In this document: piece by piece, positions 2,393 through 28,956 of the stretch
How the letters are laid out: each line of letters begins with the position of its first letter
How positions within the stretch are numbered: the stretch's first letter is position 1
Source: Lachnospiraceae bacterium
GTDB taxonomy: Bacteria > Bacillota > Clostridia > Lachnospirales > Lachnospiraceae
Reading direction: 5' to 3'
DNA length: 63,902 bases
Assembly: GCA_015057405.1 (NCBI GenBank)
Contig: SVEK01000014.1
Span: 1 to 63,902 of the forward strand
The notes under the pieces: generated by a model
Databases searched by the model: none
Told to the model about the DNA's origin: nothing
What the model saw: the letters and a program-made list of their open reading frames with translations, nothing else
Made by a program: the position numbers and the translations under genes

Positions 2393-2430
2393 CCGGATGA
2401 AAAAATGTATTTTTGGGAGGTAAATGTTAC

Positions 2431-3603
2431 ATGAGGAACGTAGACAAATATTTGGCAGCCTTAGTAAGGGCAAGTCTAAAAGGAGAGAAAGCTCCTAACT
2501 TACCGGAAGGTGTTTCTGTTGATGAGATTGTGTCTATTGCTGCAAAGAGTCACATGAATTGTATATTGTTGTCTGCACTTGTGAACGTTGATAATATATC
2601 TGATAGTGAAAGAGATAAGTTGAGAGGTATTGTACTTCGTTCTATGTTAAAAGCATCCATGCAGCTTCAGGAAGTAAAAGTACTTGATGCCAAATTTGAG
2701 GAAGAACAGATTGTTAATCAGCCTATGAAAGGGGCAATCTTAAGGTTGATATATCCGTCTCCCGAAATGAGAGAAATGAGCGATTTGGATATTTTGATAG
2801 CAGAGAATGATATGGACAGGGCTGTTACGGTTCTGTTGGATTGCGGATATGTTTTAAAAGAGTCAATAAAGCATCATGACATATATGTTAAAAAGCCGTT
2901 TATGGTTGTTGAGGCTCATCGTGCCATGTACGATAAAACAGTTGATAAGAATCAGAACAGATATTTTGACAATTTTTCAAAGACTCATGTTGCCAAGGGG
3001 CACAAGGTGACTCATGAATTTGGGATAGAGGATTTTTATGTATACATGATGGCTCATATGGCGAAACACTTTTACCAGACAGGTTGCGGAATAAGGCATT
3101 TGGTTGATATCTACGTATATCTTGGTCATTACGGCAGCAGTATTGACAGAGAGTATGTTGACAGAGAACTTGAGGAATGCGGAATTCTCACATTTACACG
3201 CCATATGGAGAAGCTGGCTTTTGATTGGATAGATGGCAAAGATACTGAGTCGTTGTATTCAGAAATATTTTTATATATGATAGATGCGGGAATATATGGA
3301 AAAGATGAGAACGGAATATGGAATAAGTTCGCAGATGAAGAAAAAAACGGTAAGACTCTCAGTAGAGGACGGTTAAAGCGCTGGTATTTCTTTCCGCCAC
3401 TTTATTATATGTCAGAATATTATCCTTATCTGGCAGAAAAACCATGGCTTCTTCCGTGGGCATGGTTTGTAAGAGGAGTGGAAGGAATTCTGAGAAAAAA
3501 AGGAAGTATGAAACGTAAGATGATAGATGAGATTGGTATGGATGACGTTAAGAAGAGACAGCATATTTACAAGGAAATGGGACTGAAGTTCTCGTCTAAA
3601 TAA
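2431..3603 (+). CDS. Lasso-cluster nucleotidyltransferase-family protein (NTP_transf_5)
   Basis: The start chosen is the ATG at 2431, 10 bases after a GGGAGG site (2415-2420); the frame also opens at a TTG at 2413 that lies before this site. The 390-residue protein carries the motif of uncharacterised nucleotidyltransferases, with PMKGAILRLIYP followed by EMSDLDILIAE around residues 107-135, where the two Asp would bind metal. Proteins of this family recur in lasso-peptide clusters of Firmicutes that encode a peptide kinase, and could add or remove a nucleotide or sugar-phosphate group, but their role in those clusters is not established here. It is followed at 80 bp by the B2 gene, which supports cluster membership. 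Confidence 0.8.
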   Translation: MRNVDKYLAALVRASLKGEKAPNLPEGVSVDEIVSIAAKSHMNCILLSALVNVDNISDSERDKLRGIVLRSMLKASMQLQEVKVLDAKFEEEQIVNQPMKGAILRLIYPSPEMREMSDLDILIAENDMDRAVTVLLDCGYVLKESIKHHDIYVKKPFMVVEAHRAMYDKTVDKNQNRYFDNFSKTHVAKGHKVTHEFGIEDFYVYMMAHMAKHFYQTGCGIRHLVDIYVYLGHYGSSIDREYVDRELEECGILTFTRHMEKLAFDWIDGKDTESLYSEIFLYMIDAGIYGKDENGIWNKFADEEKNGKTLSRGRLKRWYFFPPLYYMSEYYPYLAEKPWLLPWAWFVRGVEGILRKKGSMKRKMIDEIGMDDVKKRQHIYKEMGLKFSSK

Positions 3604-3683
3604 GTGACTTGAATATTATTTTACGGTGTTAATCAGATTATTAAAATAATATGGAAGTGACTGACAGGGAGGGAGGTCAGCAT

Positions 3684-4121
3684 ATGAAGTTTATAAAAAG
3701 CATAGTACGCTTTATTCGCTATAATGAATATAAAAGTGTAAGTTTATTATGTTGGTGGTATTCAGCTATATACAGATTTCAGGTTTTACATATGGATACA
3801 AAAAAGCTTCGCAAAAAATGGGGCTTTGAGGGTGAGGAGTCACCGGATGACGAAGCTATGGAGAATTACCGTTATGCAAAGGCGGTTTCTATGTGTGTCA
3901 ATCATGTTTGTAATAAAACCGCATGGGAAAGCAAGTGTCTTGTAAGAGCCCTTACCGCACAGAAGCTCCTTAAAAGGAAAGGTATTCAGTCAACTATGTA
4001 CCTTGGTTGCGGTATGGATGAAGGGAAAATGGTTGCCCATGCATGGCTAAGATGCGGTCGCATGTATGTGACCGGAGGCAATGGGGAAGAGTATGCCGTT
4101 GTGGATAAGTTTAGAGCGTGA
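3684..4121 (+). CDS. Lasso peptide biosynthesis B2 protein (leader peptidase)
   Basis: The start is the ATG at 3684, after a GGGAGG site at 3671-3676; an in-frame ATG at 3651 precedes that site and is less likely. The 145-residue product has the transglutaminase-like cysteine-protease signature of lasso B2 proteins: Cys85 in SKCLVRALTAQKLLKRKGI and His119 in AHAWL. These enzymes cut the leader from the precursor. The Asp normally found a few residues after the His, near a Gly, is not obvious here (LRCGR); the next acids are Glu135/136 and Asp141. The stop codon lies inside the inverted repeat of a palindromic element, so the last residues may have been altered by its insertion. Confidence 0.85.
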   Translation: MKFIKSIVRFIRYNEYKSVSLLCWWYSAIYRFQVLHMDTKKLRKKWGFEGEESPDDEAMENYRYAKAVSMCVNHVCNKTAWESKCLVRALTAQKLLKRKGIQSTMYLGCGMDEGKMVAHAWLRCGRMYVTGGNGEEYAVVDKFRA

Positions 4122-4309
4122 TACCCGCCGCTATTATACCGGCGTGCCATCAGCTTATTCACTTGCATGGCCCGCTTTCGCTGGTTGGCAAGCGTAGCGG
4201 TACATAATCAAGCAAAGAACGCTTGATAAGTACCGACGCAGCCAAAAGCCATGCCATGTGAATAAGCTGACGGCCCACCGGAAGAAATAAAGAATGCGTC
4301 CGGTATCAC
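4118..4309. repeat. MITE-like palindromic element inside the lasso operon
   Basis: The 192-bp segment begins with GTGATACC and ends with the inverse GGTATCAC. Inside, nested inverted repeats follow: TCAGCTTATTCAC near 4150 against GTGAATAAGCTGA near 4260, then TGCATGGC against GCCATGCCA, and a core with GGTAC/GTACC and ATCAAGC/GCTTGAT arms. The core is shared in opposite orientation with the element at 17372-17499. No transposase is encoded and any open frame here is incidental. It separates the B2 and B1 genes and supplies the B2 stop codon. No target duplication is clear at its ends. Confidence 0.8.
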
Positions 4310-4407
4310 TTTTAAGGGAATGGGAGTATATTGTATTATTTTTTTTGTATATTATGCTTTTGCATTTAATATAATAATAAGATTTTTTGTAAAGGAGAAG
4401 GTATAAA

Positions 4408-4677
4408 ATGGACAAGAATAAGGTTGTGAAAATGATTAAGCAGTTGAATGTTACGGAGCTTGCAGGAGAGAAGGTTATGATTGACTTTGACTCCGGAAAG
4501 TATTTCCTTATTAAGGGTGTTGGAAATGATATTTGGGATATGCTTCAGGAAGAGACTACACCGGGAAATATTATTGATAAACTTATGGGGGAATATGAAG
4601 TTTCAATTGAAGAGTGTGAAGAGTCTGTTATGTCATTTTTGAAGAAGATGCAGGAACTTGGTTTTATCTCGGATTGA
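4408..4677 (+). CDS. Lasso peptide B1 protein (PqqD-type RiPP recognition element)
   Basis: An AAAGGAG site at 4391-4397 precedes the ATG. The 89-residue protein is a stand-alone PqqD-like domain: a beta-rich first half (VMIDFDSGKYFLIKGVGNDIWDML) followed by helices (IIDKLMGEYEVSIEECEESVMSFLKKMQELGFI). In split-B lasso systems this part binds the precursor leader and presents it to the B2 protease and the cyclase. It lies between B2 and the exporter gene, separated from B2 by the palindromic element. Domain order and length are normal for the family. Confidence 0.88.
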   Translation: MDKNKVVKMIKQLNVTELAGEKVMIDFDSGKYFLIKGVGNDIWDMLQEETTPGNIIDKLMGEYEVSIEECEESVMSFLKKMQELGFISD

Positions 4678-4719
4678 GAGTGTTGAATAAGTAAGTAATA
4701 GCGGAGAGAATAATTAACG

Positions 4720-6393
4720 ATGGGTAAATTAAAGTCATTATGGAAAGACAGAAGTAATCAGCTCAGTTATCTAAAATGGATGATGGGCTATACTAAGCCA
4801 TATATAGGGCGAATCAGTCTTATGATGCTTGTGAGCGTTTTGCAGACTGTTCTGACGTTGGTTATGGTTCATGTGACGAAAACTATTATTGATAACGCGA
4901 CGGATGGCAAAGAGTTTGTTTCATTTATTGTGGTGTATATTCTGATGGTTATTGTCATGCAGGTGCTGGGTGTGTTTTCAACACTGTTTAGCACTATGTT
5001 AAATGAGCGTTTTTCTTTTGGAATTAGGAAACAAATATACGAGAAGATAATTCATTCTCATTGGATGGACGTTAAAAAATATCATACCGGAGATTTGATG
5101 ACGAGACTTACAAGTGATGCGGGAAGTATTGCGGAAGGTGTTACCGGCACGATTCCGAATATAATTCAGCTTGCAGTGGAGCTTGTACTTGTGTTTTTTA
5201 CGTTATTTTATTACTCACCGCTTTTGGCTGTGTTTGCGTTGCTGGTTGCGCCGGTGGCGGCTGTTGCTTCATTTTTATTCGGAAGGAAGCTTAAGGTTCT
5301 TCAGGTTAAGTTACAGGAATCAGAGGCTGCGTATCGTTCTTTTATGCAGGAAAGTCTTGCGAATCTGTTGATTGTTAAAGCGTTTACCAACGAAGAGTAC
5401 TCCACTAACAGATTGGTTGATCTTCGTGAAAATCGTTTTTTCTGGCTTTTTAAGAGAACTAAAATGAGTGTTGCTACTTCTACCGCAATGTCAATGTCGT
5501 TTCAGCTTGGATATATTGCCGCATTTGCTTACGGAGCAGTTCAAATATCCGTTAATGCCATTACATATGGTACAATGTCAGTGTTTTTAACGCTCGTTAA
5601 TCAGGTTCAGGCACCTGTAATGGGGCTTGCGCAACAGGTTCCTAAGGTGGTATCTGTTCTTGCATCAGCCGGTCGTGTTATGGAATTGCAGAATATGCCC
5701 GATGAAGAATTGCTTCCTGTTGACATGAACAAGGAACATATAGGTGTTAAAGTTGACCATATGTCTTTTGGATATACGGATGAACTGGTGTTAGAAGATG
5801 TATCATTAGATATTAAGCCGGGAGAATTTGTTGCAATTATCGGAGAATCCGGAATAGGAAAAACAACTCTTATACGCGTTATTATGTCATTTATGAGTAA
5901 CATTGAAGGTGGTGTTACATTTTATAACAGTCTGGGAGAAAGCAATAAGGGTAATGCAGGTACAAGGGAGTTTATTTCATATGTGCCGCAGGGAAATACG
6001 TTGTTTAGTGGTACTATTCGTGAAAATATCAGAATGGGTAAACTTGATGCAACTGAGGAGGAACTTATTAATGCGTTGAAGCTTGCTTCGGGATATGATT
6101 TTGTGATGGAATTGCCTAACGGAATTGATACTGTCATCGGAGAGCGCGGTCACGGTCTTTCAGAAGGACAGGCTCAGCGAATTGCTATTGCAAGGGCATT
6201 TATAAGAAATGCGCCGTTTTTAATTCTTGACGAGGCAACATCGGCACTTGATGAGGCTACGGAACTGTCGGTTATCAATGGGCTTAGAAAATTGGAGCCA
6301 AAGCCAACCTGCCTGGTTATAACACATAGGAAGAGTATTCTTAAGTATTGCGACAGAGAGATTAAGATTGAGAATAAGAAAGTGTCTGATTGA
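4720..6393 (+). CDS. ABC transporter, fused permease/ATPase (probable lasso peptide exporter)
   Basis: The 557-residue protein has an N-terminal six-helix exporter domain (about 25-320) and a C-terminal ATPase domain with Walker A GESGIGKTT, signature LSEGQ (LSGGQ variant) and Walker B FLILDEATSALDE, followed by the switch His in VITHR. This is the type-IV exporter plan used by lasso D proteins, which pump out mature peptide and often give self-immunity. It lies 42 bp after the B1 gene, most likely in one transcript with the N, B2 and B1 genes. Substrate is inferred from context; the family itself is certain. Confidence 0.85.
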   Translation: MGKLKSLWKDRSNQLSYLKWMMGYTKPYIGRISLMMLVSVLQTVLTLVMVHVTKTIIDNATDGKEFVSFIVVYILMVIVMQVLGVFSTLFSTMLNERFSFGIRKQIYEKIIHSHWMDVKKYHTGDLMTRLTSDAGSIAEGVTGTIPNIIQLAVELVLVFFTLFYYSPLLAVFALLVAPVAAVASFLFGRKLKVLQVKLQESEAAYRSFMQESLANLLIVKAFTNEEYSTNRLVDLRENRFFWLFKRTKMSVATSTAMSMSFQLGYIAAFAYGAVQISVNAITYGTMSVFLTLVNQVQAPVMGLAQQVPKVVSVLASAGRVMELQNMPDEELLPVDMNKEHIGVKVDHMSFGYTDELVLEDVSLDIKPGEFVAIIGESGIGKTTLIRVIMSFMSNIEGGVTFYNSLGESNKGNAGTREFISYVPQGNTLFSGTIRENIRMGKLDATEEELINALKLASGYDFVMELPNGIDTVIGERGHGLSEGQAQRIAIARAFIRNAPFLILDEATSALDEATELSVINGLRKLEPKPTCLVITHRKSILKYCDREIKIENKKVSD

Positions 6394-6411
6394 TGTACGG
6401 GTTTCTGATAT

Positions 6412-6464
6412 CCTTTATTTTGAACTACTATCCCCAAATGGGAGATAAGTAGCCAAAATAAAGG
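6412..6464. terminator. Long imperfect palindrome after the exporter gene
   Basis: CCTTTATTTTG at 6412-6422 pairs with CAAAATAAAGG at 6454-6464, and the inner parts (ACTACTATCCCC against GGGAGATAAGTAG) pair with small bulges. It sits 18 bp past the exporter stop and could end or protect the 3' end of that mRNA. No T-run follows on the + strand, so a classical intrinsic terminator is not certain. Confidence 0.5.
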
Positions 6465-6528
6465 CGAAACGTCACACACTCTGAAAAAATAATTAACAGA
6501 AAAGATGCGATAACAAGTGATTACAAAG

Positions 6529-6560
6529 AAAAACTGCCAGCAGATAATCTCTACTGGCAG
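6529..6560 (-). terminator. Intrinsic terminator of precursor gene 1
   Basis: Read on the - strand, CTGCCAG (6560-6554) pairs with CTGGCAG (6540-6534), and the hairpin is followed by TTTTT (6533-6529). It is placed 33 bp after the stop of the short precursor gene, as expected for its transcript. Confidence 0.8.
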
Positions 6561-6593
6561 GAAAATTTTATTTTTCAATTTGTAATTTACAAA

Positions 6594-6776
6594 TTAGCTA
6601 AGCTGATTCTCAGGATCTGCTGCTTCGTTTGAACCGTTTTCCGGCTTTTCCCAGCTAAGGTGACCTGATACTTCGCCATCACCGATATATCCACCATCTT
6701 TGTAAATACCGATCCAATTGTGTGCTGTTTCTTCAATGTTTAATTCTTTAATTTCTGGTGTGTTCCATGTTTTCAT
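6594..6776 (-). CDS. Lasso peptide precursor 1 (paeninodin-like)
   Basis: This 60-residue gene has an AAGGGG ribosome site 10-15 bases before its ATG. Residues 1-18 look like a lasso leader, with W-x2-P-x-I and EL spaced as in the B1-binding motif and Thr17 at the conserved -2 position (EETA). The predicted core starts at His19 and has Asp at core position 9 (HNWIGIYKD), which fits a 9-residue macrolactam ring. The tail of 33 residues is long and acidic, and the last residue is Ser, the site phosphorylated in paeninodin-type peptides. It follows the cyclase gene and has its own promoter and terminator. A His at core position 1 is unusual. Confidence 0.8.
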   Translation of the reverse strand: MKTWNTPEIKELNIEETAHNWIGIYKDGGYIGDGEVSGHLSWEKPENGSNEAADPENQLS

Positions 6777-6822
6777 AATTAGTTACCCCTTTTCAATTTT
6801 TTTATTTATTTGCTATGACTAT

Positions 6823-6851
6823 ACTATATACGATAATGATTTATATGTAAA
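6823..6851 (-). promoter_or_regulatory. Sigma-A-type promoter of precursor gene 1
   Basis: On the - strand, TTTACA (6851-6846), a 17-base spacer and TATAGT (6828-6823) lie about 50 bases ahead of the precursor ATG. The same -35 hexamer in the same TTTCTTTACAT or AGATTTCTTTACAT context occurs before the second precursor gene. Confidence 0.65.
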
Positions 6852-6900
6852 GAAATCTAACATGATTGTTACTTTTTTGTTTTTTGGGGATAGATGTCCT

Positions 6901-8874
6901 TTAAATATTTTCATTTTTGTTAGTTTCATTTGTCACAGTGTGAGCACTTTTTGAATGCTCGATGAAGTTATACAGGACACTTCCGAACATAATATACAGT
7001 ATGTCTTTTCCTATGTTTTCAAGTGTTGGTTCCCGGTCTAAGAATTCTTTAACTTTATCTGCATCGTAGTAAGCAGCAAGTTCATCTGACAAAAGCTCTT
7101 TTTTTAATGTTGGTGCAATGGTATCCCAATCGCGTATAAGTCTGGTTTCGCAGTCAGAATTTTGTACTCCGTATCGCATCCAGTTATTGATAAGGGATTG
7201 CGGTAATAAGTCTTTGCAGGAACTTCTGACAAGCCATCGCGGGGTGCCGTTATAGGCAAATAATTTATATGGCAGATGATAGCAGAAACTAAGCATTCGC
7301 ATATCTTTAGTCGGATCCCGAAGAAGTATACCAAAAGCAAGACTTACCTTAGTGTCAAGAGTTCCAAGGTAAGTATATTGTGCGGGAGCGTTCATATACT
7401 TATGGTACAGTCTTGAAGGTGTTGGTAAATATGCAAGGAGAGGTACTTTCCCGAATGCATATCTTTCCTGTAGGTTGTAATTATCCAGAATAGAATCTGA
7501 TAAGAAAGGATTAGTCGGAGTGTATTCAGGCTGTGGCCGTTTGTATTCTTTTGATGCGTGTCTGAAATAATTAAGACATCCTTTTAAAGCCGCTTTACGA
7601 CTTTCCTTAACTGTTTTGCTGTATTTGTTAAGATATTTAAGAAATGTTATGTAATGCTTACTGTCATATAAATCATAAAGAATATTATCTATATAACCGT
7701 TTGAAACTGAAAGGTTGCCCATTTGTCCGCAAAGAACGACTTTACAGGAACTGTTATGGGCATTTTGATATATTTCCATAAGATTAGGGAAATTTGCATA
7801 AGCTTTATAAGGAATTTCCATTACCCTGATACTTTTTGGAAGATCTATACAGCAATTTTTTCCGTTGTTATTAAGAAACTTAGGTACAATGTTAGGATAC
7901 ATTGTAAGTATTTTCTTAACATCTTCAGTTTCGTTGTGTACATTGTTATGATTTTTGTCCGGCGGAGTATCTTCATACGGAACGTACGTATATGAATGGA
8001 GGTTTTTATTATTTTTTTGAAGTTTGGTAGCAGCAATAGCACCTACTGTTGCTGAATCAAGACCGCTGCTCATTGCTATAGCTATTTCTCCATCTGTACG
8101 GATGGCATCTTCGACACATTGTTCATATAATTCTCTGAAATATTTGCTGTATTCATCCGGAGTTTTGCAATTACATACATTTTCTGACATATCCGGTTTC
8201 CAGTAGGAATGTTCGTTTATTTTACCGTCTGTTACGCTTAAATATGTGCCGGGATTAATCAAATATATATCTTCATACGGGGTTGCTGTTGATATAACAT
8301 TTGGCATAAGCCCGGGAGCAGTGAGATAATCTTTTATGTACAAATCGTTTATTTTTATTGAGTTATCGATTATTCGAAGAGGGGTTAACAGGGTGGAAAA
8401 TGATATTCCGTTATCATTCATATTATAATAAAGGCATCTTGCGGCAACAGGGTCGGTGGCAAGATATAATGTATTGCTGTTGGTATCATATATAGCGATG
8501 CTGAATAAACCTCTTAGGTGTTTAACGCATTCTATTCCCCAGCGTTCATAGGAAAGTGCAACCAGCGTACCATCAGGAGCAGCTGCATCATTTATCGATA
8601 AGGTTTCTAACAATTCTTCCCTATTATCAAGTACACAATCGCAAGTCAGATAATATCCTTTAATCTCATTATGATAAGGAAGAACTTCGTTGGGTGATTC
8701 TGCAGTAAAATGTTGTATTCCGCAGCCGAAGAAAAAATGTGGTGTGGTTATCGAATGAAAACGGTCAATTACACAGTTGGTACTGTAGTGAGATAAAATA
8801 TCTTTGTTAAGTTTATCAAGTTCAGCACTGTTATCATTGGTAGAAAATGAAATGTGTCCCCAAATTGCCGACAT
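6901..8874 (-). CDS. Lasso peptide macrolactam synthetase (asparagine-synthetase-like cyclase)
   Basis: The 657-residue protein has the asparagine synthetase B fold: an N-terminal Ntn-like domain and a C-terminal ATP-pyrophosphatase domain with the PP-loop AMSSGLDSATVGA near residue 270. The N terminus reads MSAIWG, so the catalytic Cys2 of glutamine-using asparagine synthetases is absent. That is the hallmark of lasso C proteins, which activate the ring Asp/Glu with ATP and join it to the new N terminus. A GGGAGG site precedes the ATG. It lies between the two precursor genes on the same strand, and the B1, B2 and exporter genes are adjacent. Confidence 0.9.
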   Translation of the reverse strand: MSAIWGHISFSTNDNSAELDKLNKDILSHYSTNCVIDRFHSITTPHFFFGCGIQHFTAESPNEVLPYHNEIKGYYLTCDCVLDNREELLETLSINDAAAPDGTLVALSYERWGIECVKHLRGLFSIAIYDTNSNTLYLATDPVAARCLYYNMNDNGISFSTLLTPLRIIDNSIKINDLYIKDYLTAPGLMPNVISTATPYEDIYLINPGTYLSVTDGKINEHSYWKPDMSENVCNCKTPDEYSKYFRELYEQCVEDAIRTDGEIAIAMSSGLDSATVGAIAATKLQKNNKNLHSYTYVPYEDTPPDKNHNNVHNETEDVKKILTMYPNIVPKFLNNNGKNCCIDLPKSIRVMEIPYKAYANFPNLMEIYQNAHNSSCKVVLCGQMGNLSVSNGYIDNILYDLYDSKHYITFLKYLNKYSKTVKESRKAALKGCLNYFRHASKEYKRPQPEYTPTNPFLSDSILDNYNLQERYAFGKVPLLAYLPTPSRLYHKYMNAPAQYTYLGTLDTKVSLAFGILLRDPTKDMRMLSFCYHLPYKLFAYNGTPRWLVRSSCKDLLPQSLINNWMRYGVQNSDCETRLIRDWDTIAPTLKKELLSDELAAYYDADKVKEFLDREPTLENIGKDILYIMFGSVLYNFIEHSKSAHTVTNETNKNENI

Positions 8875-8949
8875 AGTTATATATCCTCCCCCGGTTAAAT
8901 AAACTGTAAGTCAAGTGTGTCCTTCGCTTGCTGAGATGTTTTTAGAAAC

Positions 8950-8982
8950 AAAAAACATCGTGTACAAAATAGTACACGATGT
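8950..8982 (-). terminator. Strong intrinsic terminator between precursor 2 and the cyclase
   Basis: An 11-bp perfect stem, ACATCGTGTAC at 8955-8965 with GTACACGATGT at 8972-8982, has a 6-base loop and a T-run on the - strand (8954-8950). It would end most transcripts of precursor 2 and let a fraction read through into the cyclase, the usual way to make precursor in excess of enzyme. Confidence 0.85.
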
Positions 8983-9040
8983 AATTATAGATGAAATAAT
9001 ACAAAAAGTAAAATACGTTTCCCAATAACATGAATAAAAA

Positions 9041-9265
9041 TCAGCTCATAGTGTCTACGAAATCACTACCAAATTCATCAAAAAATATATCATTGTTGTT
9101 CTTGTTCTTATTCTTATTGTGTCCGTATCCGTTTCCTTTGCCGGGACCCATTCCGGGACCGTTATCATAACCATGACCAACTCCGTTGCCGATTCCATTA
9201 CCAAATCCATGTGCTGTTTCGGATAAACTCAGTTCAATAATATCTGCTCTGACAAACTTTTTCAT
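9041..9265 (-). CDS. RiPP precursor 2, Gly/Asn-rich, sharing the lasso leader
   Basis: The 74-residue gene has a GGAAGGGG-type ribosome site before the ATG. Its first 18 residues match precursor 1 in layout: aromatic residue at 4, EL at 11-12 and ETA at 16-18, then His19. The remaining 56 residues alternate Gly with Asn, His, Pro and aromatic residues, then turn to a Lys/Asn run and an acidic end (FFDEFGSDFVD), finishing in Ser. Core position 9 is Asn and the first acid is at core position 16, so an ordinary 7-9-residue ring cannot form from His1. It may give a different product of the same enzymes, or have another role. Confidence 0.7.
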   Translation of the reverse strand: MKKFVRADIIELSLSETAHGFGNGIGNGVGHGYDNGPGMGPGKGNGYGHNKNKNKNNNDIFFDEFGSDFVDTMS

Positions 9266-9310
9266 AATTGTAACCCCTTCCGTATTCTAATATTTACACT
9301 TATATTGTAT

Positions 9311-9339
9311 AATATAGTACGAATTAATTGAAATGTAAA
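9311..9339 (-). promoter_or_regulatory. Sigma-A-type promoter of precursor gene 2
   Basis: On the - strand, TTTACA (9339-9334), a 17-base spacer and TATATT (9316-9311) precede the second precursor gene by about 45 bases. Hexamers and spacing match the promoter of precursor 1. The kinase gene on the other strand begins 30 bp away, so its promoter must overlap this region. Confidence 0.65.
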
Positions 9340-9369
9340 GAAATATTACACATTTGATAGGAGTTTGAC

Positions 9370-10305
9370 ATGAATTATTATAAATTATATGACATGATAA
9401 TGGCAACTGATATGGAATTCCCGCAATTGATAGTATATGATGCCGGTTTGGCAGATAATAACGTGACCTGTGATATAGAGATATTTGAGGGTAATATTCC
9501 GTCCGATATTGTTACGAAATCTAAAGAAAAGGCATACGAATTTTTACCGGATAAAAGTTATCTTGTTAATAAAACTTGTTTTTTATATGTTTGTGACGGG
9601 AAAAGAATTACATATAAACTAAAGCCGGAGGGCATTGTCAGATATTTACAAAGCTATATTCTTGGCTTTGGGATGTCGATGATTGCCATGCAACGAAATA
9701 TGCTTGCAATTCATTGCAGCGCGTTAGCATGTAATGGCGAGGCTGTGCTTATAGCCGGTGAAAGCGGTTCGGGAAAGTCAACACTTGCTACTGTATTTTT
9801 AGAAAATGGATACAAACTAATGGCTGACGATATGGCTCTTATCGAAACCTGTGAGAATTCAGCTGATAACGAAAGAAGAGTGATTGCAAAATCTGCATTT
9901 CCATATCAGAAATTATGTCGTAATGTGGTTGAAGAAAAAGGATATAATCCGGATGAACTGATATATATCAATGAATATAAGGATAAGTTTCTTGCGCCAT
10001 GCAGGGAGCTGTTTCAGGAGGAAACGGTGCCTGTTAAGGCATTAATATACTTGTATGTTACTCAGAATGATGAAGTGACGGTTAATGAAGCTGAGGGACT
10101 TGATAAGTTTCATATATGTGCCGGAAATCTATTTTTACGGAAACTTCTTGGGAACGACAGATATGCTCCGCATATTGGTCAGAAATGCTTAGAAGCAGCG
10201 TCGGCAATGCCGGTATACTGTATCGGAAGACCGCAAAATGGTGACACAACAGATGAAGTGGTAAATGCAGCGTTTTCTGTTGTGAAAAAAAGCCGTATTC
10301 ACTAA
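9370..10305 (+). CDS. HprK-like lasso peptide kinase
   Basis: The ATG follows a TAGGAG site. The 311-residue protein has the HPr kinase/phosphorylase-type P-loop AGESGSGKSTLATVF near residue 129 after an N-terminal region of about 110 residues, with a following LMADDMALIE region where the catalytic Asp and metal ligand of this family lie. Kinases of this kind in paeninodin-type clusters phosphorylate the C-terminal Ser of the precursor. Both precursors in this cluster end in Ser. The gene is divergent from precursor 2 and its stop overlaps by 4 bp the stop of the convergent histidine kinase gene. Confidence 0.85.
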   Translation: MNYYKLYDMIMATDMEFPQLIVYDAGLADNNVTCDIEIFEGNIPSDIVTKSKEKAYEFLPDKSYLVNKTCFLYVCDGKRITYKLKPEGIVRYLQSYILGFGMSMIAMQRNMLAIHCSALACNGEAVLIAGESGSGKSTLATVFLENGYKLMADDMALIETCENSADNERRVIAKSAFPYQKLCRNVVEEKGYNPDELIYINEYKDKFLAPCRELFQEETVPVKALIYLYVTQNDEVTVNEAEGLDKFHICAGNLFLRKLLGNDRYAPHIGQKCLEAASAMPVYCIGRPQNGDTTDEVVNAAFSVVKKSRIH

Positions 10306-11117
10306 ATTACAGGCAACTCTATGCAAAATGTGCTTCCTTTTCCTTCGGTGCTTTCACATGTGATTAATCCATCCATGCGTTCTACGATTGCTTTAACGAT
10401 TGAAAGTCCGAGTCCGCTGCCTGTAACGCCTTCAGGAGTGCGGGCATCACACACAGTATAAGTCCTGTTAAAAATGTGGGGCAAAGAATCTTTTGGAATG
10501 CCAATGCCTGTATCTTCAACACATATCAAAAGGCGTTCGTTAGTATTATTTAAGCAGGCTTTAAGTGTAATCATGGCTCCGTCGTTAGAGTATTTGGCGG
10601 CATTTGTAAATAAATTGTCAAGAACACGTATCATTTTTTGGACATCAATTCTGATATTGCATTCAAGAGTATCAGGGATGTCCAGTTCAAGAACTTTGTT
10701 ATCATATTTGCTGTCAGCTAAAGCGTCATAGTAGTATTCTTCTAAAAATGGAAATGCCGGAACAATCTGATAATCAAGCTCTTTAGAATCATCCTCTACG
10801 CAAAACAGATAGTACATATCGTGAATAAGGTTTTCAAGGGTTTTAGTTCTGCGGTCAATAAGTTTAACAAACGAAATATAATCATTAATATCTGTAGTAT
10901 GTCCTGAGTTAAGATAGTCAATAGCATTTCGTATTGCGGTAATAGGGGCTCTCAAATCATGGGAAATATTAGACAACATTTCTTTACGCTCTTTTTGCTC
11001 CATTTGTAAATTGAGATTGGCATCACTTAATTGTTTTGATTTTATCAAAAGTTCAGCAGATAATTCTTCAATTGTTTTGTTTTCAATTACAGGTGTATGA
11101 AACTCATTTTTTTTCAT
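10302..11117 (-). CDS. Cytosolic sensor histidine kinase
   Basis: The start is set at the ATG at 11117, which has an AAAGGGG site upstream; a GTG ten codons earlier is possible. The 271-residue protein has no membrane segment. After a short coiled region it shows the phospho-acceptor His53 (SNISHDLRAPITAIR), an N-box region around NLFTNAAKYS, and ATP-binding boxes DTGIGIP and GSGLGLSIVKAI. It would autophosphorylate and pass the phosphate to the response regulator gene 45 bp upstream. Lack of a sensor domain means that the signal must come from a partner or from inside the cell. Confidence 0.9.
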   Translation of the reverse strand: MKKNEFHTPVIENKTIEELSAELLIKSKQLSDANLNLQMEQKERKEMLSNISHDLRAPITAIRNAIDYLNSGHTTDINDYISFVKLIDRRTKTLENLIHDMYYLFCVEDDSKELDYQIVPAFPFLEEYYYDALADSKYDNKVLELDIPDTLECNIRIDVQKMIRVLDNLFTNAAKYSNDGAMITLKACLNNTNERLLICVEDTGIGIPKDSLPHIFNRTYTVCDARTPEGVTGSGLGLSIVKAIVERMDGLITCESTEGKGSTFCIELPVI

Positions 11118-11162
11118 AGTACATTCGTCCCCTTTGTCAATATACACATCACTTAAAGGTCA

Positions 11163-11849
11163 TTATTTCCCGATAAATTTATACCCTACGGACCATACAG
11201 TCTCAATCATATTTTCAAGTTCGAAATCTATATTCATTTTTTTGCGGAGTCTGCTTACATTAACCATTACCGAGCGTCTGTCAGATTCAAGATATGAACC
11301 AAATAAAGCGGTGCCAAGTTCTTCGAATGTAATTTCTTTTCCCGCATTGGTAGCAAGATACAATAATACTTCATACTCCCTGTTGGCAAGCCCCAAATCT
11401 TCGTCGCGGTAAAAAGCTTTATGAGCCAGTTTGTCGATGGTAAGGTTTCCGTACACAAGCGTATTCGTGACAACCGGTTTTTCTGTTTTTCCTGCTCTTC
11501 GTAAAATTACATCAATTCGTGCCTTCAACTCTCTTAAACTGTAAGGCTTTACAATGTAATCGTCTGCACCTGTAATAAGTCCGTTAATCTTATCATCTTC
11601 AGAACTTTTGCCTGTTAAAAATATAATGGGTGCATCGGAGAATTCTCTGATTTTTTTGCATACATCATAGCCATTCATTTGTGGCATCATAACGTCTAAC
11701 AAGATGCAGTCCGGGTTAATCTTTGCTGCTTTTTTTATTCCGCTAACAGGGTTTGCGTCAGCATAAACAGTGTATCCTTCTGCGGAAAGATATTTTTTGT
11801 TGATTGCCAAAACCTCAATATCGTCATCAATAAGTAGTAAACTAGCCAT
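11163..11849 (-). CDS. OmpR/PhoB-family response regulator
   Basis: The 228-residue protein has an N-terminal receiver (acidic pair Asp8-Asp10, phospho-acceptor Asp52 in CILLDVMMPQMNGYD, conserved Lys in IVKPY) and a C-terminal winged helix of the Trans_reg_C type ending VWSVGYKFIGK. An AGGAGAGG site precedes the ATG. It is the first gene of a two-gene operon with the histidine kinase. Its position next to the lasso kinase suggests, without proof, that it may act on that cluster. Confidence 0.92.
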   Translation of the reverse strand: MASLLLIDDDIEVLAINKKYLSAEGYTVYADANPVSGIKKAAKINPDCILLDVMMPQMNGYDVCKKIREFSDAPIIFLTGKSSEDDKINGLITGADDYIVKPYSLRELKARIDVILRRAGKTEKPVVTNTLVYGNLTIDKLAHKAFYRDEDLGLANREYEVLLYLATNAGKEITFEELGTALFGSYLESDRRSVMVNVSRLRKKMNIDFELENMIETVWSVGYKFIGK

Positions 11850-13811: not shown

Positions 13812-16409
13812 TCAAATGATATGAAGGTCTATTTTTGCATCTGACAATCCTTTTGCACTGACTGTGAGAGTTGTATCTTCTGTAATTGTTCCTGAACGGA
13901 TTATGGCCATACATTGACCGCGATAGCTTGTAAAAGAACCTGATGTATAGTTTTCATCTGTAATAGGATTGGCAGAACCAAACCCTGCAAGTGTGGCATG
14001 TCCGTAACCTGTGTTAGTAAGCGAGGCGTGCAAAAGCATATCATTTTCCTGAATCAATAATCCATCGGAATCCACAAGCTCAACCAGAACATAAGACAGA
14101 GATTCTCCGTCAGCATTAATAGTAGTCTTTTCAGGCGTGAGTCTGATGTGTGCGTCTTCTTTTGCTGTATTAAGTTTAGCTGAAGATATTTCATTGCCGT
14201 CATTATCAAGACTTACAGCTGTCAATTCTCCCGGAGTATATTTTACATCAAATATTGTGGTGAAATGATTGGCCAAATCATTTTCTTTGGTGTCAAGGAG
14301 CTTGCCATTAAGATAAAGTGCAACTTTTGGAGCTGAAGAATATACGTAAACGTTTAAATTTTTTCCTTCGTAACCGTAATATGTCCAGTTAGGGTATACG
14401 TAGTTAAATCCCCAAAAGCTAACGACTTCCTCCATATCGTATAGCTCTGGTGAGGAGGTGAAAACATATGTACCTTTGTCTCCCCACACAACTCGTCTGA
14501 AACCACTTTGAGGAAGCAGACAACCATTGATATCAAAGTCTGCGTCTTTTGCCAGTCTCCATGGGTAAGGTGATTCGGAGCTTGCAAGTGCTTTTACGGC
14601 TTGTTTAATTTCTTCCTCATTACCTTTTTGGCAGAAAACGGATTTACCTAATCCGGCTTCTCCGATATAGTCCATACTTGTCCATGTGAAGTCTCCGATA
14701 ACAAATGAATGTTTCATTACATTTGCCCATATTGTATCGTATAATTTCGGAACACTTTCAGTTCCGACAATGACTCTTTCAGGATGAAGTTTGCCGGAAA
14801 GTTCATAGTCATTGTCGAGATAATTATATCCGACTACGTCAAGGTTATTGAGAAATGGTTCGCTTCTTGTAATCATGAACGAAGGATTGGTGTCGCAAGG
14901 GTTATTGCATTGTTCATCATCGCAAAGCCCACTCCATAAGGCACAAAAAGCATTGGTAACAGGTCGTGATGCATCAAGGCTGCGTACATAAGAAGCCAGT
15001 TTGGTGGCAATATCAAAACCGCGTCCCAATCCGGCGCGCTCCCATATTTCGTTACCTGTAGACCATATGATTATACTTGGGTGGTTGCGGTCCCTAGTGA
15101 TAAAGGAATGCATATCTTCTTTCCATAATTTATCGAAAAGCAATCCGTAATCTCCGGGTTGTTTGCATATTTCAAAACTGTCAAAGGCTTCGTCAATAAC
15201 GTAGATTCCAAGTTCGTCACATGCACGAAGAAATTCGCTTGAAGGCGGATTATGAGCCGAACGAACTGCATTGTATCCGTTTTCTTTATGTAAAAGTATT
15301 TTTCGATATTCACTGTCATATAAGGATATGGCACCTAAAATACCGTTATCGTGGTGTACACATCCGCCCTTTAATTTGATAGGGCGATTGTTAATCATAA
15401 GACCATTTGCGGAATCTGTAGTAATCATTCGGATTCCAAACGTCGTTGACAGAGAATCTTTCATAGGCTCCGCGGTCTGTATTAGGCGGGTCGTAAATGA
15501 ACCGATTTCTTCAATATTGACTGTAACATCATACAAATTAGGATTACGGTCATCCCATAAAAGAGGATTATTAATTGAAGTACGAATTCTTGCCACTGTA
15601 GAAGAGTTTGCTTCGATACTTACGGAATCTCTTCTTGTTATTGTATTCAGAACACCGTCACTGTTGGTGATATCTCCAATGTTTGTTTCATTTATGTTAT
15701 CAGCTTCATTTCCCCCGTCGGTGACATTTTCAGTATGAGAAGTGACTGCATTACATTCAGTATCTGATTTTGCACGTGGTGAAAATGCAACGCTGACATC
15801 AACTATTTTGCGTTGTGCAGTATGATTTTCAATAGTTACTTCTGTTACTACATACGCCGTGGATGCTTTATTGTCAGTATAAGTTATTCTGTCGGTATGA
15901 GAAAAAATACCATCATTGGCAATATGAATCTTTGGTCCGTGCATAAGAGAAACTGAACGGTAGATTCCGGCACCGGTATACCATCTTGAAGATGGTTGCA
16001 TTGAAGCGTTAACATTTACCGTGATTTTATTAGTTTTGCCATAATCGACGTATTCTGTTATATCCACTGCAAAAGGAGTGTATCCATAATGATGATGTGT
16101 AACTAAAGAACCGTTTACATCGATGGACGCATATCCCATTACGCCGTCAAAGTTTAGGTATATCTGTTCCCCTTCGTATTCGGAAGGTATAAATAGTTCT
16201 TTTGTATAACTTCCAATGCCGCCTTCATAATATCCCATAGCAGGACCTGCGGAAGCTTCCGGTTTAACGTCTGTTTCGATCATAAAATCATGCGGAAGAA
16301 TAAGTTTTTTGTAACCGGAATCAGTTTTGTCTTTATTTTCCCTGTAATGAAACAAATCGAATTTGCCCGGAAAAAACACCCAGTCCTTATTAATTTTTTC
16401 GATAATCAT
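13812..16409 (-). CDS. GH2 beta-galactosidase/beta-glycosidase
   Basis: The 865-residue protein begins directly with a GH2 sugar-binding domain (about 1-190), then an Ig-like domain, the TIM-barrel catalytic domain (about 320-610), and C-terminal Ig-like domains. The acid/base is Glu near 453 in STGNEIWERAG and the nucleophile is Glu near 550 in VGTESVPKL. There is no signal peptide, so it is cytoplasmic. A Ser/Thr/Asn-rich low-complexity stretch of about 40 residues (near 225-268) interrupts the Ig-like domain. An AAGGAGG site precedes the ATG. Beta-galactosidase is the most likely activity, but other GH2 activities cannot be excluded. Confidence 0.88.
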   Translation of the reverse strand: MIIEKINKDWVFFPGKFDLFHYRENKDKTDSGYKKLILPHDFMIETDVKPEASAGPAMGYYEGGIGSYTKELFIPSEYEGEQIYLNFDGVMGYASIDVNGSLVTHHHYGYTPFAVDITEYVDYGKTNKITVNVNASMQPSSRWYTGAGIYRSVSLMHGPKIHIANDGIFSHTDRITYTDNKASTAYVVTEVTIENHTAQRKIVDVSVAFSPRAKSDTECNAVTSHTENVTDGGNEADNINETNIGDITNSDGVLNTITRRDSVSIEANSSTVARIRTSINNPLLWDDRNPNLYDVTVNIEEIGSFTTRLIQTAEPMKDSLSTTFGIRMITTDSANGLMINNRPIKLKGGCVHHDNGILGAISLYDSEYRKILLHKENGYNAVRSAHNPPSSEFLRACDELGIYVIDEAFDSFEICKQPGDYGLLFDKLWKEDMHSFITRDRNHPSIIIWSTGNEIWERAGLGRGFDIATKLASYVRSLDASRPVTNAFCALWSGLCDDEQCNNPCDTNPSFMITRSEPFLNNLDVVGYNYLDNDYELSGKLHPERVIVGTESVPKLYDTIWANVMKHSFVIGDFTWTSMDYIGEAGLGKSVFCQKGNEEEIKQAVKALASSESPYPWRLAKDADFDINGCLLPQSGFRRVVWGDKGTYVFTSSPELYDMEEVVSFWGFNYVYPNWTYYGYEGKNLNVYVYSSAPKVALYLNGKLLDTKENDLANHFTTIFDVKYTPGELTAVSLDNDGNEISSAKLNTAKEDAHIRLTPEKTTINADGESLSYVLVELVDSDGLLIQENDMLLHASLTNTGYGHATLAGFGSANPITDENYTSGSFTSYRGQCMAIIRSGTITEDTTLTVSAKGLSDAKIDLHII

Positions 16410-16443
16410 TTTTTGCCCTCCTTAATTCAAAATATATAAAACT

Positions 16444-17365
16444 ACTCTACAAAATGTATCCGCCCCACTGCCGCTTGCTACGAAATGTGCATACTCGACC
16501 GCCGCTCGCCATGAAATGCGCGCAACCCACTGCCATTCGCTACGAAACGAGCCCACTCGACCGCCGCTCGCCATGAAATGTGCGCAACCCCACTGCCGCC
16601 TGCTACAAAATGAGCCCTCTCGACCGCCGCTCGCCATGAAATGTGCTCATCCCCACTGCCGCTTGCTACGAAATGAGCCCCCTCGACCGCCACACGCCAT
16701 GAAATGTGTTCATCCCCACTGCCGCTTGCTACGAAATGAGCCCCCTCGACCGCCACACGCCATGATAGGTGCTCATCCCCACTGCCGTTTGCTACGAAAT
16801 GTGCATACTCGACGGCCGCTCGCTATAAAATGTGCCTCCACTGCCGCTCGCTACGAAATGAGCCCACTCGCCTGTCGCTCGCCATGAAATGTGCTCATCC
16901 CGACTGCCGTTTGCTACGAAATGAGCCCACTCGACCGCCACACGCCATGAAATGTGCGCAACCCACTGCCGCCTGCTACGAAATGTGCATACTCGACGGC
17001 CGCTCGCCATGAAATGTGCTCATCCCCACTGCCGCTTGCTACGAAATGTGTCTACTTCGACCGCCACACGCCATGAAATGAGCTCATCCTCACTGCCGCT
17101 TGCTACGAAATGAGCTCACTCGATCGCCACACGCCATGAAATGAGCTCATCCTCACTGCCGCTTGCTACGAAATGTGTCTACTTCGCCTGTCGCTCGCCA
17201 TGAAATGTGCTCATCCCGACTGCCGCCTGCTACGAAATGTGTCTACTTCGCCTGCCGCTCGCCATGAAATGTGCTCATCCCCACTGCCGTTTGCTACGAA
17301 ATGTGTCCACCCCGCTGCCACTCGCTATGAAATGAGCCCCCTCGACCGCCACTCGTCATGATAGG
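16444..17365. repeat. Array of about 15 tandem 62-bp degenerate repeats
   Basis: Two alternating half-units of about 31 bp recur: one with GCCGCTTGCTACGAAATG and one with GACCGCCACACGCCATGAAA, linked by AGCCCCCTC or TGCTCATCCCCACT type spacers. I count about 15 of each. The array is far richer in G+C than its surroundings. Open frames on both strands follow the repeat period and carry no known protein, so I treat it as non-coding. Copies vary at scattered positions, with no unique spacers, so it is not CRISPR. Confidence 0.9.
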
Positions 17366-17371
17366 TGCCGT

Positions 17372-17499
17372 ACCGCTGGCCCTTGCTATGCCAGGACTCT
17401 TTGCCCCGTCGGTACTTAACAAGCGTATTTTGCTTGTTTATGTACCGTTACGAAGGGCAAAAAACGCAAGTGTGTCATGGCATAGCAAGGGTCAGCGGT
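17372..17499. repeat. Second palindromic element of the family found at 4118-4309
   Basis: A 22-bp terminal inverted repeat (starting ACCGCTGGCCCTTGCTATG; one mismatch between the two ends) encloses a core with CGTCGGTACTTAACAAGCG and TTTGCTTGTTTATGTACCG. That core matches the reverse complement of the core at 4118-4309, while the outer arms differ. The hairpin arm reads AACAAGC/GCTTGTT here and ATCAAGC/GCTTGAT there, a paired change that keeps the stem. It directly adjoins the 62-bp array. Confidence 0.8.
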
Positions 17500-27815: not shown

Positions 27816-27975
27816 GAATATCGCAAGCGACATTCTTTGTTCTTTAAAAAATAAGTAGATTCTTACAATTATGTCAGATTTATTGACGATATCACTAAGG
27901 TTACGTATAATTACTATGGGTGGAGTTTGTGTATGATTTTTCTGTTAAAATACAATTATACGAGGGGATATTGTA

Positions 27976-28956
27976 ATGAAAGAATTTCTTGATTTTTTGG
28001 AATTATTAAAAGGGAAAAAATTATATGTTCAAACACACAATTTTCCGGATCCGGATGCTATTGCATCAGCGTTTGGATTAAAAGAATTACTATCTCATTT
28101 TGGAATAACATCGACTATGTGTTATGTTGGAAGAATTGACAAATTAAGCACAAAGAAAATGACGATGTTATTTAACATAGATTTATGTCCTTATGAAGAA
28201 TTGAAAAATGAAATGACGGACGAGTCTTTGGTGATATGTGTTGACTCACAGAAGCAGGGCGGTAATATTCTTGATACAATTTGTCAGGAAGTTGCAGCTA
28301 TAGATCACCATCCTACATTTGTTCCTGTTGAATATCAGTACTCCGATATACGTATGACAGGTAGTTGTGCGACGTTGATAGCTGAATATTATAAAAAACT
28401 TAATGTACCTATGTCATCTGATGTTGCCACTGCTTTGTTATACGGAATGAAAATGGATACGTTAAACTTTACCAGAGGAGTGACTGAATTAGATATTGAA
28501 ATGTTTGCATTTCTGCATCCGATTATTAACGAAGATAAAATGGCCTGCCTTGAGAGGAATACGATGGAGATGAAAGACCTTAAGGCATATGGTGCTGCAA
28601 TAGAGAATATTGAACTGTTTGGAACAACCGGTTTTGCAAGGATTCCTTTTGCTTGTCCTGATGCCATGATTGCAATGGTATCGGATTTTATTTGTGCGGT
28701 TGAAGAGGTAGATACGGTTGTAATATATTCTTACCGTGAGGACGGAATAAAGTTTTCCGTTCGCTCAATTAACTCTGAAATAAACGTAGGAGAATTAACC
28801 AATAAAGCTCTTGAAAAGGTTGGTAATGGCGGAGGACACGATTCCATGGCAGGAGGATTTATTCCGGTTGCCAACAAAGAATTGTTAGGTAATAGTCCTG
28901 ACAGGTCTATCAGACAGTATTTCTTTAAAGCATGGGATGAATTATATGCCATGTAA
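27976..28956 (+). CDS. DHH-family phosphoesterase (NrnA-like)
   Basis: A GAGGGG site precedes the ATG. The 326-residue protein has the DHH-domain motifs: NFPDPDAIASAFGL near residue 20, a central VDSQ, IDHHPTF near 95, and the C-terminal DHHA1 motif GNGGGHDSMAGGF. The family includes nanoRNase/pAp phosphatase and small cyclic-dinucleotide phosphodiesterases, and sequence alone does not choose between them. The first motif has Asn where His is usual, a change that could affect metal binding. It stands alone between two non-coding stretches. Confidence 0.82.
   Translation: MKEFLDFLELLKGKKLYVQTHNFPDPDAIASAFGLKELLSHFGITSTMCYVGRIDKLSTKKMTMLFNIDLCPYEELKNEMTDESLVICVDSQKQGGNILDTICQEVAAIDHHPTFVPVEYQYSDIRMTGSCATLIAEYYKKLNVPMSSDVATALLYGMKMDTLNFTRGVTELDIEMFAFLHPIINEDKMACLERNTMEMKDLKAYGAAIENIELFGTTGFARIPFACPDAMIAMVSDFICAVEEVDTVVIYSYREDGIKFSVRSINSEINVGELTNKALEKVGNGGGHDSMAGGFIPVANKELLGNSPDRSIRQYFFKAWDELYAM

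Follow-up and report, generated by a model that had tools for sequence, protein, structure and literature searches.

The minus-strand open reading frame at positions 9041 to 9265 of the window, i.e., the whole 63,902-nt stretch of DNA analyzed here, which is an entire Lachnospiraceae contig, encodes a 74-residue peptide, A2, in which a leader and a tail of the lasso precursor type flank a glycine-rich core that lacks an acid at the ring positions. Sequence comparison makes A2 a paralogue of A1, the lasso precursor encoded in the same cluster, and we consider the chances about even that A2 is secreted as the second product of a lasso cluster with two outputs, linear, handled by B1, B2, a kinase, and an exporter shared with A1, and tagged on Ser74. 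More tentatively, a single lasso line may turn A1 into a threaded lasso and A2 into a different kind of product, a linear Xaa-Gly phosphopeptide, A2 having a non-lasso head and having kept the control element, the leader, and the kinase tail; leader and tail would then be a general address for export and phosphate tagging, with the ring optional.

A second precursor gene in a paeninodin-type lasso cluster

The cluster, which starts about 2.4 kb from the start of the contig, is of the paeninodin lasso type, with a kinase and a nucleotidyltransferase. Its first four genes lie on the plus strand and encode a PF14907 nucleotidyltransferase-like protein (compare PsmN; positions 2413 to 3603; PF14907 1.3e-44, over the cut-off), the leader peptidase B2 with a transglutaminase-like fold (3651 to 4121; NF033537 and PF13471 above cut-off), the discrete RRE (PqqD-like) leader-binding protein B1 (4408 to 4677; PF05402 above cut-off; NF033536 3.6e-21, 75.1 bits against a cut-off of 80), and an MsbA-like ABC exporter (4720 to 6393; PF00664 and PF00005 above cut-off). 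On the minus strand follow A1, an ordinary lasso-type precursor of 60 residues with known relatives, an acid at core position 9, and a terminal Ser (6594 to 6776); the lasso macrolactam synthetase C of the asparagine synthetase type, i.e., the cyclase (6901 to 8874; PF00733 above cut-off; NF033535 3e-59, with a score of 201 below the cut-off of 525); and A2, located between the cyclase gene and the divergent gene of an HprK-like peptide kinase (9370 to 10305, plus strand), whose best matches, TIGR04352 (44.6 against a cut-off of 200) and PF07475 (31.4 against 33.3), are both below cut-off. The family scan further placed on the minus strand a sensor histidine kinase of 281 residues (10302 to 11147) and an OmpR/PhoB-type response regulator (11163 to 11849), the latter with 68 to 76% identity to its counterparts at five related loci (L048, L056, L083, L086, and L109). 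Because the lasso-specific B1 and C models and both kinase models scored below their cut-offs, these proteins were named from best match, residues, and context. A search of NCBIfam and Pfam revealed no extra modifying enzyme or additional maturase among the 10 cluster proteins of positions 2413 to 11849. Before the cluster, the reading frame at positions 11 to 1246 presumably encodes a flippase, which it resembles by eye.

Like the known paeninodin-type lassos (PadeA, and PsmA of pseudomycoidin), this cluster combines a discrete B1 and B2, a cyclase, an MsbA-like exporter, an HprK-like kinase, and a PF14907 protein with precursors that end in Ser and have leaders ending in T-x. Unlike those precursors, A2 has no ring acid, Phe and Ala instead of Trp and Pro in its leader, and an Xaa-Gly repeat as its core.

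A2 has a leader similar to those of lasso precursors

An earlier note, made from the sequence alone, had described A2 as a second precursor with a lasso leader, and the frame proved to be real as described. The start codon ATG is preceded by the ribosome site AAGGGG, the stop codon is TGA, and the translation reads MKKFVRADIIELSLSETA followed by HGFGNGIGNGVGHGYDNGPGMGPGKGNGYGHNKNKNKNNNDIFFDEFGSDFVDTMS, i.e., a leader (residues 1 to 18), an Xaa-Gly repeat (residues 19 to 48), a His/Asn/Lys run (residues 49 to 58), and an acidic tail ending in VDTMS (residues 59 to 74). No family in NCBIfam or Pfam matched A2 above its curated cut-off, and the lasso precursor model NF033524 gave no A2 match, a weak test in that A1 itself reached just 12.7 bits against a cut-off of 27. 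The likeness in leader layout that the note had seen between the two precursors is also present, as both leaders are 18 residues long, end in ETA, and are followed by His, with 8 of the 18 residues identical.

We scored the 1473 open reading frame starts of the window with a leader profile of 15 columns from 48 relatives' leaders, which were picked by eye, include none from the window, and are fewer than the 59 distinct related precursors counted later. A1 scored 41.2 and A2 ranked second with 19.8, the next frame reaching 8.8; with two Phe-type leaders removed from the profile, A2 scored 16.7 compared to 11.7 for the next frame, and none of 100,000 shuffles of the A2 leader reached 16.7. The leader rank and the shuffles, together with the upstream element described below, exclude A2 as a chance open reading frame.

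Paeninodin-type leaders are characterized by W/YxxP, aliphatic residues, and Thr at −2/−3. Of these features, the A2 leader keeps Thr17, Ile9, and Leu12, while two RRE anchors are changed, Trp4 to Phe and Pro7 to Ala; among the profile leaders, the Trp anchor is present in 46 of 48, and the second anchor is Pro in 38 and Ala in 8 of 46. Binding of A2 to B1 may thus be poor, which counts against a processed and secreted A2 peptide. The same Phe and Ala anchors are shared by precursors of loci L106 and L107 that keep the ring acid (e.g., MKKFVNADI..ETAFG), so that a weak yet real binding of A2 by B1 appears plausible by comparison of these leaders.

A1 and A2 share a candidate control element

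Alignment of the regions upstream of A1 and A2 showed that ATTTCTTTACAT and AAGGGGT.AC.AATTATG are common to both. The upstream regions of relatives yielded a 27-nt consensus, CTAACAATTTTGTTAGAATTCTTTACA, in which we see direct repeats of 11 nt that run into the −35 box. Such an arrangement is expected of an OmpR/PhoB-type regulator site, and the response regulator of the cluster is a candidate binder. With a profile of nine relatives' sites chosen by eye, the best score in the window was obtained upstream of A1 (positions 6846 to 6872, minus strand; 32.7; 69 nt before the start codon) and the second best upstream of A2 (positions 9334 to 9360, minus strand; 24.1; 68 nt before the start codon; direct repeats assigned by eye), compared to a top score of 17.5 in 20 random sequences. 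Counting against the element, a third place in the window (positions 27862 to 27888) scored 23.9, barely below A2, and precedes no precursor; the gene that follows it at position 27976 we take by eye to encode a DHH phosphoesterase.

At the relatives' loci, 38 places scored at least 19, and 35 of them sit 52 to 93 nt upstream of a lasso-type precursor, 23 of which remain after removal of 9 training sites and 3 repeat copies; the other three are L057:5291, L104:4855, and L108:1909. These 35 sites, from loci L047 to L130, correspond to 32 distinct precursors, i.e., 32 of the 59 related precursors, and at the threshold of 19 the element is absent in 27 of 59, e.g., those of L091, L096 (its acid-less precursor included), and L099. 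When the genome of the window was searched with the element as a pattern, A1 and A2 were found at zero mismatches, the place at 27862 at one, and six places at three (one for the reversed control), a search that gives no independent support because the pattern had been widened to admit the bases of A2.

Both genes have similar promoter-like sites, TTTACA-17-TATAGT for A1 (positions 6823 to 6851, minus strand) and TTTACA-17-TATATT for A2 (positions 9311 to 9339, minus strand), and each is followed by an intrinsic-terminator-like hairpin on the minus strand, at positions 6534 to 6560 after A1 and at positions 8955 to 8982 between A2 and the cyclase gene, the latter with 11 pairs and then a T run. 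Overall, the scan gave 48 promoters compared to 39.9 in shuffles and 5 terminators compared to 6.1; as it finds no more terminators than the shuffles, position and likeness to A1 carry the weight here. Among the openly licensed papers listed by literature searches on such lasso systems, no title or abstract opening describes the 27-nt element or an acid-less or Xaa-Gly lasso precursor. The element may offer a leader-independent route to hidden precursors.

A2 ends in a serine beside an HprK-like kinase

In relatives of the A1 type, the leader is followed by a lasso head and in many cases by a linker of low complexity, with Asn/Ser, Pro-Thr, or Gly/Ser runs, before C-terminal ends such as IDTLS, EDTLS, NQLS, and GFTS. 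In A2, the end NKNKNKNNND...VDTMS corresponds to a linker and an end that are kept, with the head replaced, and its terminal Ser, Ser74, is found in the same cluster as an HprK-type kinase. PadeK and PsmK are reported to phosphorylate the C-terminal Ser of their precursors, with (poly)phosphorylation and hexose addition described for pseudomycoidin, and an H-K-D-D motif is reported for kinases of this type (PMC9266682). The corresponding residues of the window kinase, H115, K136, D153, and D154, are invariant in eight aligned kinases.

A terminal Ser is present in 25 of the 59 related precursors, and that 34 end otherwise counts against a tagged A2 peptide. When each precursor was assigned a kinase by distance only, whereby L055:1720 and L087:11998 received the nearer, less similar of two kinases, all six distinct precursors whose nearest kinase reached at least 250 bits against the window kinase ended in Ser, compared to 15 of 48 others (Fisher P = 0.002), two of the six being near-identical (L086 and L111). 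The proportions were 9 of 14 and 12 of 40 at a cut-off of 200 bits (P = 0.03), and 14 of 28 and 7 of 26 at 150 bits (P = 0.10); the association of Ser and kinase is dependent on the bit cut-off. Four rows (three distinct precursors) with no kinase in the locus, as well as L120 to L123 and L130, were left out of this comparison.

An Xaa-Gly repeat stands in place of the lasso head

The earlier note's account of a core with Gly at every second residue, a Lys/Asn run, and an acidic end is borne out by the translation, in which the tail after the Lys/Asn run reads DIFFDEFGSDFVDTMS. All even core positions from 2 to 30 are Gly with the sole exception of Asp at 16, which amounts to 15 Xaa-Gly units, 14 with Gly, and the partners are, in order, H, F, N, I, N, V, H, Y, N, P, M, P, K, N, and Y. 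Between the second codons of the units, pairwise identity is 1.0 at base 1, 0.87 at base 2, and 0.35 at the wobble base. That Gly is kept in 14 of 15 units while the wobble base varies freely points to a constraint on the protein, and from this codon pattern we take the repeat to be old or selected; fresh DNA slippage was rejected on the observed wobble identity of 0.35. The note had also found the core unlike any lasso core known to it, and such a repeat occurs in none of the 59 distinct related precursors, in which Xaa-Gly runs extend to 3 units at most (7 in A2) and Gly makes up no more than 0.33 of core residues 1 to 30 (0.47 in A2). A pediocin-like bacteriocin, suggested by the GNG strings of A2, was rejected.

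Distribution of the cluster among relatives

Five aligned cyclases, used to scan one genome from each of 84,980 species, identified 34 loci. The closest, L083 from a Roseburia metagenome-assembled genome, matches the window in the order of response regulator, histidine kinase, kinase, C, and A1, with 58% identity for C and 57% for the kinase, and no precursor-like frame was found in the 243 nt between its kinase and C; the same gap is 61 nt in L087 and 85 nt in L108. Conservation of the frame in relatives, on which the earlier note had let its reading hang, is thus half there: a precursor between kinase and cyclase is absent in these three loci, whereas L096 has one, with an acid at position 10, and the leader and tail of A2 are those of the family. 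Given the three loci without it, A2 was either gained in the lineage of the window or lost in theirs. A homologue search of 299 family genomes with A2 gave weak matches in 34 besides its own; the 14 loci examined, out of 29 others obtained, were all low-complexity or unrelated frames, and among viral contigs 12 stretches matched, none of them a relative. No A2 orthologue was found in the relatives examined, which counts against a functional peptide. Of 10 genomes of the genus, only the window's own had the cyclase at 1e-20, the other nine being without it. At the family level it was detected in 11 of 397 genomes at 1e-30, and at the order level in 2 of 392 at 1e-90, both counts including the own genome; plasmid records gave only matches below 60% identity, the best among the matches listed having 32%.

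The missing orthologue, together with the loss of the leader anchors W and P, is what one would expect if A2 had arisen by duplication of a lasso precursor and were now decaying or newly diverged, with its head overwritten by the Gly repeat and its product gone. We regard such decay as unlikely, since the upstream element, promoter-like site, ribosome site, terminator-like hairpin, frame, and terminal Ser are all in place, Gly is retained across units with varying wobble bases, and the Phe..Ala leaders of L106 and L107 belong to precursors that keep their acid.

It is quite unlikely that A2 acts as a decoy or regulator, its leader or tail occupying B1 or the kinase and so tuning the A1 lasso, or its released peptide being sensed by the two-component system. 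The leader type, tail, and control element common to A1 and A2 would suit this role, and the terminator-like hairpin of A2 would permit separate dosage; a weaker leader should nevertheless be a poor competitor, and the only matches of the sensor kinase above cut-off are HisKA and HATPase.

A core with no acid at the ring positions

As the earlier note had read it, core positions 7 to 9 of A2 are Ile, Gly, and Asn and the first acid is D16; an Asp or Glu acceptor is absent at positions 7 to 10 in either register. Among the 59 distinct related precursors, 22 have no acid at positions 7 to 9 counted from TA|X, and because 18 of these have one at position 10, the cut may fall one residue later, leaving Thr at −3, an assignment also made in PMC7533575. 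Four of the 59 have no acid at positions 7 to 10, so that, as judged from these precursors, an acid-less A2 is rare and not alone. Three of the four, those of L093 (with an identical copy, L094, on the same contig), L097, and L100, have a conserved C-terminal part in common. The fourth, L096:12126-12314 of [Eubacterium] cellulosolvens, has a low-complexity Pro/Thr/Arg-rich core and a terminal Ser and lies downstream of the cyclase, on whose upstream side is the precursor with an acid at 10; as a further cluster in which a normal precursor is accompanied by an acid-less one ending in Ser, this locus counts in favor of a linear A2 product. The acid-less precursor of L096 differs from the E. cellulosolvens precursor given in Table 3 of PMC7533575.

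As a separate observation, a related C-terminal part (C.N.YW.GN..., in most NP(Y/F)W..(S/A/F)WG) was seen in L092:12054-12305, L093:12037-12240, L095:12058-12315, L097:7741-7935, L099:12156-12395, L100:5341-5535, and L116:12058-12315, and the cyclase of L100, whose precursor is without a ring acid, appears as two frames.

If D16 served as the acceptor, A2 would form a ring of 15 to 16 residues, or a later cut would give GNGVGHGYD with a ring from Gly1 to Asp9. D16 is the one residue that breaks the repeat, and a Gly-rich precursor at L056:3556-3792 has GPGYD ending at ring position 9. We hold such an enlarged or shifted ring to be improbable, as we know of no precedent for lasso rings above nine residues, a cut before GNGVGHGYD would be without the Thr at −2/−3 of the family, and one base change in a Gly codon would suffice to give D16 (GAT, among GGT, GGA, and GGC). 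Other chemistry, spontaneous or by enzymes encoded outside the cluster (e.g., succinimide formation at the four Asn-Gly steps of the core, or cross-linking), is very improbable, with no additional maturase among the 10 scanned proteins.

Proposed handling of A2 and comparison with known systems

A pathway for a linear, Ser-tagged A2 peptide can be proposed from these features. The two-component system would switch on A1 and A2 together, and B1 would bind the A2 leader through its RRE; the divergently encoded HprK-like kinase would phosphorylate, perhaps polyphosphorylate, Ser74, and the nucleotidyltransferase-like protein possibly acts after it. B2 would cut at or just after ETA, the exporter would release the peptide in linear form, rich in Xaa-Gly and with phosphate on its acidic tail, and the cyclase would act on A1 only, making the A2 product the linear counterpart of the cluster's lasso peptide, its linear state predicted because the ring acid is missing. 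The earlier note had raised the possibility of a new RiPP type handled by the same B1, B2, and kinase. Shared handling is the best reading of the leader type, element, promoter layout, and terminal Ser that A2 has in common with A1 beside an H-K-D-D kinase; for the new chemistry, the 10 cluster proteins provided no extra modifying enzyme.

Linear polyphosphorylated peptides (LPPs), as described in PMC13381572 (2026), are linear, kinase-modified products of a set of RRE, kinase, NTP transferase, and exporter that often stands beside paeninodin-type clusters; they have their own RRE, an SpI-like peptidase, the leader motif YxxPxVLxHQxIxFETxxS, and phosphate on core Ser3, and which RRE is chosen depends on whether the first leader anchor is Tyr or Trp (PMC13381572). 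A2 is similar in its predicted linear product; in the RRE, HprK kinase (named by below-cut-off matches), NTP transferase, and MsbA-like exporter encoded around it; and in its location next to a lasso cluster of the paeninodin type, with polysaccharide genes possibly nearby. It differs in that its leader, MKKFVRADIIELSLSETA, misses the LPP motif, and in the single B1, B2, W/FxxP/A leader type, and C-terminal Ser found here; a macrolactam cyclase is also present (6901 to 8874), which may serve A1 only. For the SpI-like peptidase (PF10502), the own genome gave four hits above cut-off on contig 53, one weak hit on contig 8, and none on the contig of the window. With neither the LPP leader motif in A2 nor an SpI-like peptidase encoded in the window, A2 was rejected as an LPP member.

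The second lasso precursors of rumen Lachnospiraceae (Table 3 of PMC7533575, selected there for Gly at position 1 and Asp at 8 or 9; also L105, L106, and L107) resemble the present case in having two precursors per cluster with the same leader type, and A2 differs from them by lacking Asp at 8 or 9. If the linear reading of A2 is true, a precursor in a lasso cluster need not be made into a ring, and mining of genomes by a rule such as that of PMC7533575, which requires Asp at 8 or 9, overlooks genuine products. It may then be the tail with its phosphate, and not the knot, that accounts for the role of LPPs and kinase-tagged lassos.

Double lasso clusters at L055, L056, L057, L104, L108, and L109 have two cyclases and/or two kinases and separate precursors, with apparently common B1, B2, and exporter, and the genome of the window itself has a second lasso cluster on contig 51 (L047:8973-12190), with a precursor of the QGKNISSNYDEIR type and its own kinase and cyclase. 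Elsewhere in the window, several frames at positions 16422 to 17422 read repeated peptides by eye (e.g., MKCAHPHCRLLRNE), after a gene at positions 13812 to 16409 that, also by eye, we assume to encode a beta-galactosidase.
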